A DNA stretch of 5,055 bases. Source: Candidatus Eiseniibacteriota bacterium (GTDB lineage Bacteria > JAFGKV01). The stretch covers positions 1 through 5,055 of the forward strand of contig JALOPK010000272.1 in assembly GCA_025453925.1 (NCBI GenBank). The letters run 5' to 3'. Made by a program: the position numbers and the translations under genes. Numbering within the stretch: the stretch's first letter is position 1; each line of letters starts with the position of its first letter. The notes beneath the pieces are model-generated. The model was not told the origin of the DNA and made no database searches. It saw only the letters and a list, made by a program, of their open reading frames with translations. Of this stretch, positions 1 to 5,055 are shown piece after piece.

Positions 1-856
1 GATCCCTCGCCCGGGAGATGTCGGGCTGGCGGACCCGGGGATCGTCCACGGGCAGCGGTTTGAAATCGAAGTCAGCCACAACGCCGGCGATCCCGCTGAC
101 CGCCCGGCCGAACGTCTCAATGGTGCGTTCTTCGGGATTGCCGAGATTGACGGGCTCGGTGATCGCACTCCTCGTGAGAAGATCGATCCCCCGCACCAGG
201 TCGTCGACGTAGCAGAAGCTCCGGGTCTGCGTCCCATCGCCGAACACGGTAAGCGGCTCTCCGGAAAGCACCTGGCGGACGAAGGTGGGCACGACGCGCC
301 CGTCGTTCATCCTCATCCTCGGCCCGTAGGTGTTGAAGATCCGGGCGATCCGGGTTTCCAGACCGTGATAACGGTGGTAGGCAACGGTCATGGCTTCGGC
401 GAACCGCTTGGCCTCATCGTACACGCCCCGGGGGCCGATGGGGTTCACATTGCCCCAATACGACTCCCGCTGGGGATGCTCCAGGGGATCGCCGTACACC
501 TCGGAGGTCGAGGCGAGGAAGAACCTGGCACCCTTGGCCTTGGCCAGACCGAGGGCCTTGTGGGTCCCCAAAGCGCCGACCTTGAGGGTCTGGATGGGAT
601 ACCTCAGATAGTCGACGGGGCTTGCCGGGCTGGCCAGATGCAGCACAAAGTCAACCGGCCCCTCGACGAAGATGTAGTTGGTCACATCCTGCTTGATGAA
701 CAGGAAGTGATCGTTTCCCGACAGTTGCTCGATATTGCGCGTGCGCCCGGTGATGAGATTGTCCATGCAGATTACCCGATGACCCCGCGCCACCAGGTAG
801 TCGCTCAGGTGGGAGCCGATGAACCCTGCTCCTCCGGTGATCACATAGGTTGCCAC
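1..856 (-). CDS. uxs: UDP-glucuronate decarboxylase (UDP-xylose synthase), 3' end cut by window edge
   Basis: This is an extended short-chain dehydrogenase/reductase that should convert UDP-glucuronate to UDP-xylose and CO2 in the cytoplasm, using tightly bound NAD+. About 285 codons are visible. The N-terminal Rossmann motif GGAGFIGSH is at residues 8-16, followed by D32-N33 at the end of the second strand. The family signature [12 protein letters not shown] is at 73-84. STSEVYGDP (116-124) supplies T117 and E119, and YDEAK (146-150) supplies the catalytic Tyr and Lys. Further downstream are [24 protein letters not shown] and, at the edge, [17 protein letters not shown]. These blocks separate UXS from dTDP-glucose dehydratases and GalE. 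Family members are about 310-320 aa, so roughly 30 residues are missing off the left edge. I chose the GTG at 856 because it lies 6 bases after a perfect AGGAGG; the GTG at 859 is only 3 bases away. It is the last visible gene of the operon and would supply UDP-xylose for the glycan. Confidence 0.93.
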
Positions 857-858
857 CA

Positions 859-1929
859 CTAACCTCCTTGGCCGTCGGGAGAAAGGCGCTTCCTGCTCAG
901 ATCTCCCAGCGAAAGCCCCTCCAACCAGACGAAAACCATGCCGACGATGATGATCGGAATCATGTTGAGAGCATGAAGCACAAAGGCGAAGGCCCGGCTC
1001 GCGTTGGGGTCTGCGTCCGGAGCCAGGAGAAGAATCGCCGCCACGCAGGCCGCGTGGTAAGGACCGGCATACCCCGGTGCCGACGGGATGAGAACCCCCA
1101 GTGCAACGATAGGCGTGATCACGTAGGGCGCGTACCACGGCAGATGGACCCCCAGGGGGAATGCCCAGATGACCGGGTGGACCACCGCCATGCTCACCAC
1201 CCACACGACCAGAGTCCAGAGTGCGACCGCCCCCAGTTGACGCAGGGAACTGAAAATGGTGAGGCCGGTGGCAAACTTCTCCAGCGACCCGATCACCCGC
1301 TCATGTCCGGGCAGCCAGTGGAGCACTCTGGCGAAGAACGCCAGAGTCCGCTCCTTGCGATGGTGCAGGAAAAGCATGCCGACTAGAGCCCCGGTGTAGA
1401 GCACGAGGGCGAAGACGATGCCTGTCCGGAGCAGACTCCCTCCCGTGCCGTGCAGCGGAGCGAGGAGCAGTGCGGCAAAGAGAAAGATCAGGAGCATGTA
1501 GCCATCGAAGAGCCGTTCGATCACGATGGTCGCGAACACCGACTCGAAGCGCAGCCGGTCCCGCCTGATCAGAACGAGTGCCCTCAAGAACTCCCCCATC
1601 CTCGCAGGGAAGATGCTGTTGCCCATGAAGCCGATCATGAGGGCCCTGAAGGAACTGGTGAAGCCCACCCTCCCCACGGGATGGAGCAGAACCTGCCACC
1701 GGAATGCCCGCAGGACGAAACTGGCCAGAAACAACGCGACAGCCGGTATGGTCAGCAGCCAGTTGACCTGTCGCAGGCTGGCCACGGCCTCATGGAAGTC
1801 CATCTTCCGGACCACGAGCCAGAGGAAGAAGGCGCTGACCGCGATGCCGAGAAGGAGACGCCAGCATCTTGCCCAGAGGGTCGGGCCCGCGGCACGCACG
1901 GAGGGACCCGGGAGGTTCGGATCAACCAT
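859..1929 (-). CDS. YbhN/AglD-type flippase-like integral membrane protein (LPG synthase TM family)
   Basis: This 356-aa polytopic inner-membrane protein belongs to the lysylphosphatidylglycerol synthase transmembrane / UPF0104 family (Pfam PF03706). Visible family signatures are RAFRWQVLL (74-82), [15 protein letters not shown] (103-117), ERLFDG (138-143) and [11 protein letters not shown] (282-292). I count about seven to eight hydrophobic helices, for example near 25-40, 57-73, 144-157, 168-187, 233-255, 268-281, 293-303 and 321-336. There is no soluble lysyltransferase domain, so it is not an MprF enzyme. Stand-alone members next to glycosyltransferases are usually inferred to move or handle lipid-linked sugars or phospholipids, but the exact activity is rarely proven. 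The ATG at 1929 lies 12 bases after the sugar transferase stop and has no clear Shine-Dalgarno sequence, so translation probably depends on coupling. Its stop (861-859) touches or nearly touches the next start. The family call is firm; the substrate is not visible. Confidence 0.9.
862..869 (-). promoter_or_regulatory. Strong Shine-Dalgarno sequence for the UDP-xylose synthase gene
   Basis: Read on the minus strand, the site is AAGGAGGT, a full match to the anti-Shine-Dalgarno consensus. It is made of the last two codons (GGA GGT) and preceding bases of the flippase-like gene, directly before that gene's TAG stop at 861-859. Its position favours the GTG at 856 over the GTG at 859 as the start. 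No other gene in the window has a site of comparable strength. Confidence 0.85.
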
Positions 1930-1941
1930 GTCTGGATGGGC

Positions 1942-3420
1942 TCAGTAGGCGTTCTTGCTCTTCGCCCACTCGGACAGCGTGCGGAAGAGTACTTTCAGAT
2001 CAAACCAGAGCGACCAGTTCTCGACGTAGTAGATGTCGAACCGGGTACGCTCCTCGATGCTGGTGTTGCCCCGGAGGCCGTTCACCTGCGCCCAGCCGGT
2101 CATGCCCGCGCGCACCTTGTGGCGCTCCAGGTACCGGGGAACCTGCTCACGGAAGCGCTCGACGAAGAAAGGCCGCTCGGGACGCGGGCCTACGAGGCTC
2201 ATCTCGCCGCGAAGGACGTTCCACAACTGGGGCAGTTCGTCTAGGTTCCACTGGCGGAGGAATCGGCCGATGTTGGTGCGGCGGGGATCCTCTGGAGTTG
2301 CCCAGACAGGGCCCGACGCCTCCTCGGCGTCGATTCGCATCGAGCGAAACTTGTACATCGTGAACAGACGGTTGTTCAACCCCACGCGCTTCTGACCGAA
2401 GAAGATCGGCCTGCCGGAATCCCGCAGAATCGCCAGTGCGACCAGGCCCAACACCGGCAGCAGACCCACCACCATCATGCTGGCCACCACGACATCGGTC
2501 ACCCGTTTGGCCACCGCGCCCCACCCATCGATGGGCCGCGAGCGGAACACGAGCAACGGGACGCCCCCGAGATCGGTGGCCTGGAAGCCCGTGGTCATCA
2601 TGCCGAACAGATCGGGGACCATGTCGTAGCTCACGCGGCTTCGCGCACACTCCCTCAGCACGGACAGAATGCGCTGATGGTGCTGGAACGGGATAGTGAT
2701 GATCAGCCGGTCGACGCGATGGGCGCTCAACAGGCGCCCCAGGTGATCAAGGGAGCCGAGATCAGCGATCTCCGTGTCGCCGCAGTTCATCTGGCCCGTC
2801 CCGATGGTGCCCAGGAGCACGATCCCGGGAGGCGGCCGGTAGGTCAGGTTGTGGAGGATCTTTGCGGTGTGGGGGCCCTTTCCGATCACGGCGATTCGCG
2901 TGATCCCGATTCCCTGGCGGGTCAGCCACCGGGACACGCCCCTCAGCAACGTGGTGCGGTTGAGCCCCAGGAGGACCAGCGTCAACATCCAGGTGACCGC
3001 AACGACGATACGGGAGTACGTCTGGTCACCGAAGAAGAAGGCCGCGGCCAGAAAGAGCAGGAAACTGAGCGCTCCCGCCTTGAATACGGCGGCGAGCTGG
3101 TCTCCCAGGCAGCGCGTCTGCCCCATCTGATACAGCCCGCTGCGCGCCAGCAGCACCAGCCAGATGATGAGCGCTCCCGCCAAACCCGGGAGGTAGGACT
3201 GCAACGTTGGGTACTGCGCCTGCGGCGCGAGGATCCCGAGAGAGAAGCGCACGTAGTACCCGATGACGAAGGAGACGACAATCCACGCTGCGTCGGTGAG
3301 AAGTGCCACCACGGGAAAGACCGCCTGCATGGCAAGAGGCTTCCCCTCGTGGAAAGGAAGACGGTGTTCGTGACGCTCTTCCGCCTCGATCTCACCGACG
3401 CGAACGGCAGGACTGTCCAT
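1942..3420 (-). CDS. Polyprenyl-phosphate sugar-1-phosphate transferase (WcaJ/ExoY-type priming glycosyltransferase)
   Basis: This 492-aa enzyme should transfer a hexose-1-phosphate from a UDP-sugar to undecaprenyl phosphate, the first step of exopolysaccharide or capsule repeat-unit assembly, at the inner membrane. Four N-terminal membrane helices lie near 32-55, 74-92, 113-130 and 137-153. A CoA-binding-like Rossmann domain follows (about 175-285; IAVIGKGPHTAKIL at 176-189). The C-terminal bacterial sugar transferase domain starts at about 297, with its membrane helix at 307-333 broken at P322. It carries GQKRVGLN (342-349), YKFRSM (356-361), the acidic pair D364/E366, LDELPQLWNVLRGEMSLVGPRPE (393-415), TGWAQVNGLRG (441-451) and YYVENWSLWFDL (464-475). 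Length and architecture are normal for the WcaJ/EpsE class; glucose is the commonest sugar, but the substrate cannot be read from sequence. The frame stays open far upstream, but the protein starts at the ATG at 3420 (or the adjacent GTG at 3423), just after the preceding stop. The upstream extension is a Gly/Arg-rich shadow frame. Confidence 0.95.
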   Translation of the reverse strand: MDSPAVRVGEIEAEERHEHRLPFHEGKPLAMQAVFPVVALLTDAAWIVVSFVIGYYVRFSLGILAPQAQYPTLQSYLPGLAGALIIWLVLLARSGLYQMGQTRCLGDQLAAVFKAGALSFLLFLAAAFFFGDQTYSRIVVAVTWMLTLVLLGLNRTTLLRGVSRWLTRQGIGITRIAVIGKGPHTAKILHNLTYRPPPGIVLLGTIGTGQMNCGDTEIADLGSLDHLGRLLSAHRVDRLIITIPFQHHQRILSVLRECARSRVSYDMVPDLFGMMTTGFQATDLGGVPLLVFRSRPIDGWGAVAKRVTDVVVASMMVVGLLPVLGLVALAILRDSGRPIFFGQKRVGLNNRLFTMYKFRSMRIDAEEASGPVWATPEDPRRTNIGRFLRQWNLDELPQLWNVLRGEMSLVGPRPERPFFVERFREQVPRYLERHKVRAGMTGWAQVNGLRGNTSIEERTRFDIYYVENWSLWFDLKVLFRTLSEWAKSKNAY

Positions 3421-3425
3421 CACGC

Positions 3426-4622
3426 TCAATCCATGGTTCCATACGGCGAGATCCGGCGACTGTCGCCCGCGGGATCCCGGCGTAGCCGAGTGCAGACTTT
3501 TCCGATTGACCGAAAGAGGCCACAGAATAAAAGCACCACCCCTACTAACACCAAGACCCCAACTCCGGTGCCCGAGGCCATGCTCCGTCCAAGGATGGCC
3601 ATCCAGACCTGGCCTCCCGGCGTTCCCGGCCACGGGATCGCCAGCACCACGAACAGCATGTGCCACATGCCCAACTCCCGGTGGCGCGCATACCCGTCCG
3701 CCGCGGTAGCGAGATCGGCGGTCTGTACCAGCGAGCGCATCCGTATCGTCCACATTCCCCCCGCCACAATGGCGACCGCCATCTGTACCACCACCAGCGT
3801 CACCAGAGTCGGATTGCCGAACCCAACGCCCAGCAACGCGAGTCCCAGGTGGCACTGCGCGACCTGCCCGAGTACTGACTCGGCCAGCCATTCGACCTGG
3901 AGCCACAGCGCCCCGGTCACCAGCGCGACGCACCCCAGCAGCCCGAAGGAGGCGGCCAGAAGGGAACCGGAATCCGCGTGCAGCGCGACGTGGAGCCGCA
4001 ACAAGGCGATCATGCTGGCCGGGAGAAACACCGCCAGGAGCATCAACAGGGGAAATCCCTGCAGCCGCCGAGCGCTGCGCCGGAGGGAGAACGGAAAGGG
4101 AAACAAACCCAGCCGCAAGGCCGCCGTGGCCGTGAGCAGCACCGCCGCCCCGGTATGCCAGACACCCACGCCGTGCGCCAGCCCCGCCCCCGAGAGGAGG
4201 GCCAGAATGCGGCCGTCCGACATGCGCCATCCACCGACTCCCGGCATGGCCCAACCGGTGGTCACCGTGACCGAACCCGCCACCACGAGGAACAGAAACA
4301 CGGAGGCCGCGTGCTGTTGCAGCTCGAGGATGCGGCCGGGCTTGCCGGAAGTCTCGCCGCCCTCCCGCCGCACCAGGACCGTCAACGCGGCGCCGGAGAC
4401 CAGCCAGGCCAGCAAGAGAACTCCCATATGGCCGGTCAATGCCGTCACTGCCGACGCCGCCGCGGTCACGCCGAGCACGGCGCCGCCCCGAGGCCGGGTC
4501 ACGGCATAGACCGCGCCCAGACAGGCTGCCAGGATAAGCACCGCGGCCACGGGGGCCGACGTCACCGGCAGAAGCACAACGGCCCACGCCGCGGGAAGAA
4601 GCATCACCAGCAGACCGTACAT
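3426..4622 (-). CDS. NuoM/antiporter-like membrane protein, short and lacking the usual proton-channel residues
   Basis: This is a 398-aa, very hydrophobic protein with about 11-12 predicted membrane helices (standard NuoM has 14 and about 500 aa). By-eye alignment to NuoM/MrpD-type subunits of complex I and related antiporters places LLLAWLVSGAALTVLV (69-84) on the helix that normally carries W-E, HAASVFLF (104-111) on AAxKFFLY, ALRLGLFPFPF (168-178) on AVKxPxxPxHxW, and VLGQVAQCHLG (250-260) on LIAYSSVSHMG. The stretch from LAIPWPGTPGG to MAILG (327-344) falls on GMPGTxxFxGEF. At the key positions Glu is Leu74, Lys is Arg170, the next helix Lys is Pro201, and the late Glu is Gln338. It ends in an Arg-rich tail (371-398). 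The ATG at 4622 begins a membrane helix 2 bases after the upstream stop; an extension to 4862 would read through the neighbour's gene and is Arg/Gly-rich. No strong Shine-Dalgarno is seen. The gene is real; the family call is moderate and the function is unknown. Confidence 0.62.
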   Translation of the reverse strand: MYGLLVMLLPAAWAVVLLPVTSAPVAAVLILAACLGAVYAVTRPRGGAVLGVTAAASAVTALTGHMGVLLLAWLVSGAALTVLVRREGGETSGKPGRILELQQHAASVFLFLVVAGSVTVTTGWAMPGVGGWRMSDGRILALLSGAGLAHGVGVWHTGAAVLLTATAALRLGLFPFPFSLRRSARRLQGFPLLMLLAVFLPASMIALLRLHVALHADSGSLLAASFGLLGCVALVTGALWLQVEWLAESVLGQVAQCHLGLALLGVGFGNPTLVTLVVVQMAVAIVAGGMWTIRMRSLVQTADLATAADGYARHRELGMWHMLFVVLAIPWPGTPGGQVWMAILGRSMASGTGVGVLVLVGVVLLFCGLFRSIGKVCTRLRRDPAGDSRRISPYGTMD

Positions 4623-4624
4623 GG

Positions 4625-5055
4625 TCAGCGCAGCCAGGCGAGGGCAAGCACGGCGACGATCACCGCCACCTGCATACCCGGAGAAGACGCCAGCCGGCCG
4701 GCGCACCAGCGCGCCAGCAGCAGCGCGTGGAGCGGGATTCTCCCAAGCGCAGGCACCACCACGTCCTGGAACCAGGCGATACCCATGGCATGGACCGCAA
4801 GGAGTCGCCGCGGCAACCACAGCGTCATCCCCTGCCATCCGAATCGTTCCACGGCCACCCACAGGACCGCGGCGGTATCGACACTCGGCGAGGTCCAGGC
4901 AACCGCCGTATCCCGAATCAGGCCACCGACCGCATCGACCCGCGCGCGGAACCGGTCAAGGGGACTCCGCGCCGCCCACCACAGCACCACTCCTGCGCCG
5001 ATGCCCCCGGCCAGTAAACCCCACGCCCGGGGCCCGCCGGGGACGCCGTACCGCA
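4625..5055 (-). CDS. C-terminal end of a probable NuoL/MrpA/DabB-like membrane protein, 5' end outside window
   Basis: The frame is open from the right window edge to the TGA at 4627-4625, giving 142 C-terminal residues. A hydrophobic helix (about residues 11-26 of the visible part) is followed by a long amphipathic stretch with scattered Arg and Trp, then ARWCAGRLASSPGMQVAVIV leading into a last hydrophobic helix that ends in WLR. That layout resembles the end of NuoL: a lateral amphipathic helix, then a short 'RxLQxGxxxxYA' link and a final membrane helix. There is no diagnostic motif here, so the call rests on this layout and on the NuoM-like gene 2 bases downstream, which repeats the L-then-M order of nuo and related operons. 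A GTG at 4990 could start a small protein, but the frame continues upstream in good coding style to the edge, so I read it as a partial gene. The channel residues would lie outside the window. Confidence 0.5.
   Translation of the reverse strand, partial: RYGVPGGPRAWGLLAGGIGAGVVLWWAARSPLDRFRARVDAVGGLIRDTAVAWTSPSVDTAAVLWVAVERFGWQGMTLWLPRRLLAVHAMGIAWFQDVVVPALGRIPLHALLLARWCAGRLASSPGMQVAVIVAVLALAWLR

Follow-up and report, generated by a model that had tools for sequence, protein, structure and literature searches.

The window analyzed here, the whole of contig C306 (5,055 bp) of a draft genome of Candidatus Fermentibacteria, encodes a 398-aa membrane protein that appears to keep the fold of the antiporter-like subunit NuoM and to have lost all five of the key ionizable residues compared. 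The explanation that we favor, at roughly even confidence, is that of an antiporter-fold subunit that no longer pumps, is retained for structural reasons, and belongs to a membrane complex engaged in envelope polysaccharide work; the fold and the loss of charges are recovered computationally, and the role is predicted. Antiporter-like subunits are otherwise thought to be retained for their lysine/glutamate proton routes. The features of the window are as follows.

2 to 856, minus strand: NAD-dependent epimerase/dehydratase (SDR) for nucleotide sugars (PF01370); cut by the contig end, start approximate
859 to 1929, minus strand: lysylphosphatidylglycerol-synthase-TM/flippase-like protein (PF03706, TIGR00374)
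1942 to 3420, minus strand: WcaJ-type undecaprenyl-phosphate glucose phosphotransferase (PF02397; TIGR03023, over its cutoff)
3426 to 4622, minus strand: gene for the NuoM/MrpD-fold protein, 398 aa by translation (ATG at 4622, stop at 3428 to 3426)
4047 to 4115, minus strand: conserved segment, residues 170 to 192 (R170-LGxFPFPFSLRRxARRLxGxPL), from the alignment, with coordinates by arithmetic
4625 to 5053, minus strand: C-terminal 142 aa of a large multi-TM protein without a family match; cut by the contig end

An earlier note on this DNA had described the product as a NuoM-like protein short by about 100 residues, and it is indeed ∼110 residues shorter than E. coli NuoM (509 aa), lacking the TM2-3 region, the H348 segment, and the C-terminal helices. 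The landmarks read by eye in that note (W73-L74, R170, LFPFPF at 173 to 178, P201, E248, HLG at 258 to 260, PGT at 332 to 334, and Q338) all lie at the positions given.

Placement of the protein by sequence required profile methods. Neither Pfam nor NCBIfam gave a match to the window protein at E values up to 1, nor did PDB sequences. PF00361 (Proton_antipo_M) was likewise without a match to it at E values up to 1 and to its orthologues at E values up to 10, and the three-orthologue alignment found no match in the PDB by sequence. Against comparison profiles built from ∼15 genomes plus E. coli K-12, hhalign ranked NuoM first (score 32.7, E 0.003, 314 columns, probability only 10%), followed by NuoN (25.4, z 3.4); scores for NuoL, NuoH, and unrelated membrane proteins were 14 to 18, and the reversed query scored 21 against NuoM. 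None of 40 local column shuffles reached the NuoM score (mean 17.5, maximum 30.5; z 4.7). The alignment runs collinearly with NuoM and holds W143, FPF, H[LM]G, and PGT in register, and an HMM of the three orthologues ranked E. coli NuoM top among the comparators, with no reversed sequence in the first 12. The sequence evidence for antiporter-like membership is thus weak but consistent, above controls and best for NuoM.

The antiporter fold comprises 14 helices in NuoM, with two inverted five-helix repeats. An AlphaFold2 model built on the three sequences had a mean pLDDT of 57.5; its confident part is residues 200 to 382 only, with residues ∼210 to 380 averaging ∼67 to 87 per ten-residue block, and pLDDT is <50 at residues 55 to 159 and 168 to 201, where the TM5 and TM7 positions fall. 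In a Foldseek search of the PDB, all of the first 50 matches were complex I, NDH-1, or Mrp antiporter-like chains (best E 4e-3). VIA-align gave Z values of 15 to 17, most rows covering ∼285 residues at an rmsd of ∼4 Å. Unrelated helical bundles can give a Z of ∼13 to 14; the values for the model exceed this level, and the matches belong to one superfamily throughout. By its modeled fold, the protein is assigned to the antiporter-like superfamily (NuoL/M/N, MrpA/D) in a shortened form. Profile comparison, HMM ranking, and the model therefore all support the NuoM/MrpD-like fold that had been proposed, and we file the protein as a divergent member of this superfamily that is neither PF00361 by the Pfam cutoff nor a NuoM pump.

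When the protein was aligned jointly with 16 NuoM proteins in MAFFT, W73 fell on W143 of NuoM and the five key ionizable positions (E144, K234, K265, K312, and E407) are all changed. E144 is replaced by L74 (V and M in the two relatives), K234 by R170 (codon 4115 to 4113; Arg in both relatives), K265 by P201 (P in both), K312 by E248 (E and G), and E407 by W340 (W in both); H322 corresponds to H258 (Y in both relatives), and H348 falls in a deletion of the 398-aa protein. The proton-translocating residue set of NuoM (TM5 Glu, TM7 Lys, TM8 Lys, and TM12 Glu/Lys) is, as judged from the alignment, lacking: the corresponding positions in the three orthologues read L/V/M, R, P, and W. Hydropathy-predicted helices of the window protein hold no Asp, Glu, or Lys except K375 near the C terminus. 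None of the five key residues is kept in any of the three orthologues, in contrast to three to five in every one of 54 other antiporter-like proteins (18 with five, 33 with four, and 3 with three), and on this comparison the loss is judged not to be due to chance. The same alignment recovers a known exception, the Leu of HycC at the TM7 Lys position (PMC9474812).

Four of the replacements proposed by hand alignment (L74, R170, P201, and E248) were thus reproduced. The helix-12 Glu had been placed at Q338, which instead aligns with V405, two residues off and likewise non-acidic. The description of the protein as stripped of its charges holds for the canonical residues but is slightly overstated, since TM7 keeps a positive charge as an invariant Arg. 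The substitutions recur in all three orthologues, P201 and W340 being invariant and residue 74 reading L, V, or M. The search for a better match to an unrelated family, or for other Lys or Glu residues in the channel positions, gave no result against the proposal.

Mutation of K234 in NuoM abolishes function and mutations of E144 impair activity (PMC3046159), while K265, H322, and E407 form a proposed proton route (PMC9271201). The E407K variant of NuoM still pumps at about three-quarters, so no single site is decisive and it is the joint loss that counts.

Charge-intact relatives of the superfamily occur in the same lineage, in a separate PF00361 cluster that also bears signatures of NuoH-, NuoB-, and NuoD-type subunits and of the hydrogenase large subunit. 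The PF00361 proteins in genomes G000 and G001 score 177 to 212 bits and have intact equivalents of E144, K234, K265, and K312, with Lys at 407. Because these hydrogenase-type antiporter subunits keep their charges, the loss appears to be specific to the NuoM-like gene of the window. The cluster itself is a group-4 [NiFe]-hydrogenase-like complex of Candidatus Fermentibacteria (G000:C421 [L010], G000:C471 [L009], and G001:C240 [L064]), comprising NuoH-, NuoB-, and NuoD-type subunits, a NuoK-type subunit, and two antiporter subunits with their charges intact; the sequences CGIC and CYSC in the NuoD-type protein suggest an intact NiFe site. These genomes yielded no PF00361 proteins beyond those of this complex. 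In G002, a 1030-codon open frame (G002:C183:19412-21370 [L065]) carries PF00361 in two separate stretches and is perhaps a fusion of two antiporter-like subunits.

The NuoM-like protein is narrowly distributed. Its two other orthologues, which share 53% and 43% identity with the window protein, are both from Candidatus Fermentibacteria, one from the genus and one from the family of the window genome, giving three species in two genera in all. An HMM search of 386 genomes, including three of the phylum, found only the three Fermentibacteria and no match in the 383 others. In the genome contig collection, a single-sequence scan gave no match and an alignment-based scan gave only the two relatives; plasmids (tblastn) and PADLOC gave none, and no description of such a protein turned up in literature searches.

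The gene is closely packed with its neighbors. The stop codon of the large-protein gene (4625 to 4627) lies 2 nt before the NuoM-like ATG, and WcaJ starts 5 nt (ATG) or 2 nt (GTG) past the NuoM-like stop; because of these gaps, the genes almost certainly form one operon. In G001 (L006), the order is a large repeat protein, a protein without assignment, a SpoIID-like protein with TPRs, two small membrane proteins, the large membrane protein, the NuoM-like protein, WcaJ, the flippase-like protein, the SDR, and a frame labeled IspE-like by eye; at full length, the large membrane protein has 536 aa here and 573 aa in the other relative. G002 has the same order as far as the NuoM-like gene, where its contig ends before WcaJ; a different contig carries its WcaJ, flippase-like, SDR, and IspE-like frames. 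The two contigs (C178 and C131) carry the same 131-bp repeat at their ends, in opposite orientation and without exact overlap, and are plausibly adjacent. This dispersed repeat (L007:1-131 and the last 150 bases of L076; 97.7% identical) lies beside the NuoM-like gene and wcaJ. Upstream of the SpoIID-like gene, both genera encode a very large repeat protein (1784 aa in G002) with a YPNPF-type C-terminal domain (L006:1-3804 and L007:7050-12404), and between the two lies a conserved protein of ∼300 aa (L006:3830-4735 and L007:6000-6914), the L006 copy of which has no Pfam match.

Several accounts other than a non-pumping structural subunit were considered. That the gene is a relic, i.e., a former antiporter subunit under relaxed selection and heading for loss, is unlikely. 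The protein changes faster than its neighbors (52% identity, against 79 to 93% for the downstream genes), and the G002 copy lacks the first helices and is preceded by a ∼285-nt gap without a long frame, yet the frame stays open and long in all three species, which represent two genera. Across these species, invariant positions number more than 100 and cluster in motifs (including R85, E87, K94, R97, R170, R181, R182, R185, R186, and P201), and the key-site substitutions are mostly identical (Arg, Pro, and Trp) and non-random. Differences between the window and G001 at the three codon positions are 0.41/0.26/0.60 for the NuoM-like gene and 0.17/0.05/0.51 for WcaJ, a pattern suggesting that the former is under purifying selection, looser than that on the enzymes. 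We reject a pseudogene in view of this pattern together with the shared substitutions, which bears out the earlier view that the gene is not decaying. Least probable, in our estimate, is a protein without the antiporter fold (an O-antigen polymerase, flippase, or other multi-TM envelope protein) with a convergent likeness to NuoM. The envelope-polysaccharide-type operon and the lack of a match in family libraries would suit such a protein, whereas the exclusively antiporter-like structural matches, the collinear motifs, and the profile z score argue against it.

A channel or carrier of changed specificity, in which Arg170, polar residues, and charge from a partner chain move an anion, a polar solute, or a lipid-linked group, is a doubtful but serious alternative. 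It is consistent with the retained fold and broken-helix motifs, with the invariant Arg170 at the TM7 position, and with the precedent of DabB2 of the CO2-hydrating complex DAB2, an antiporter fold recruited outside respiration. DabB2 has no ion-pair motifs and relies on Glu444, which the finger of its partner DabA2 supplies (PMC13144422); charges can therefore come in trans, which keeps this alternative alive. Against it, the replacement of the TM8 Lys by an invariant Pro and of the TM12 Glu by an invariant Trp, with deletion of the H348 segment, leaves the known half-channels unrecognizable. Unlike the window protein, moreover, DabB2 is a recognized PF00361 member, keeps the NuoL-like proton-transfer residues of TM4-11, and has DabA as its partner (PMC13144422); no DabA-like neighbor was seen for the NuoM-like gene. 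HycC of E. coli formate hydrogenlyase is a natural antiporter-like subunit missing one canonical charge (the TM7 Lys is Leu208) but keeps the TM5 Glu, a lysine aligned with K265, and the TM12 Glu391 and is part of a redox enzyme (PMC9474812). The hydrogenase-type antiporter subunits of the lineage share the superfamily and the genomes but are PF00361 positive. The window protein itself shares with NuoM (ND4) and MrpD the collinear TM4 to TM13, the W of the W-E motif, FPF, H[LM]G, PGT, and a model that superposes, and it differs in its lost charges and length, in a TM7-8 loop that is now Arg rich, and in an operon without a redox module.

It is very improbable that the charges have been relocated and that the protein still works as a proton or sodium antiporter subunit. 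The gene does lie in a series of membrane proteins (two small, one large, and one medium) that recalls nuoJKLM or Mrp, and some charged residues occur in predicted helices of the large protein, but the near absence of acidic residues and lysine from the helices of the NuoM-like protein and the loss of all key residues oppose activity, as does the lack of hydrophilic redox subunits next to the gene (no NuoB/C/D/H-type subunits adjoin it in the G001 and G002 neighborhoods). In profile comparisons for a possible nuoJKLM-like set, the small proteins gave z values of 0.4 against NuoJ and 1.5 against NuoK, and the apparent NuoK match (14 bits) sets the first helix on a later part of NuoK, with reversed-sequence noise at 12 bits. 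The large protein gave a z of −0.9 against NuoL and of 5.4 against NuoN, the latter by a long-gapped, untrustworthy alignment, and its AF2 model had a pLDDT of 39.

For the preferred non-pumping subunit, we propose the following. A divergent NuoM/MrpD-fold protein that has lost the canonical proton-translocation residues would not pump by the complex I/Mrp route, although protons could still pass via other residues, water, or a partner chain. It may instead serve as a structural membrane subunit, forming a redox-free module with the large membrane protein encoded upstream and probably with the two small ones. Two conserved basic segments, REGGxTxxKxGR and LRRxARRL, stand in for the TM5-6 and TM7-8 loops of NuoM, the second lying in the conserved segment of residues 170 to 192, which aligns with the end of TM7 and the TM7-8 loop. 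Both loops should be cytoplasmic because of the topology of NuoM, in which the TM6 Lys is at the cytoplasmic surface (PMC3046159), and they may bind anionic lipid, lipid-linked sugar, or a neighboring enzyme such as WcaJ. With WcaJ directly downstream, such binding would be the most economical role, and the neighborhood points to envelope polysaccharide work over regulation of a respiratory complex. A bolder version, that Candidatus Fermentibacteria have a redox-free, complex-I-derived module of two small, one large, and one NuoM-fold protein that abandoned pumping and acts on envelope lipids or lipid-linked sugars beside WcaJ and the SpoIID-like protein, is speculative and, as a whole, rather unlikely.

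With the fold kept and five of the five positions lost, the protein would present an unusually complete split of fold from pumping, for which HycC and DabB2 are partial precedents. It could serve to probe what the bare scaffold is capable of and how parts of complex I are reused. In these bacteria, an ancient pump component that selection keeps in an envelope sugar operon may have taken on a different task.
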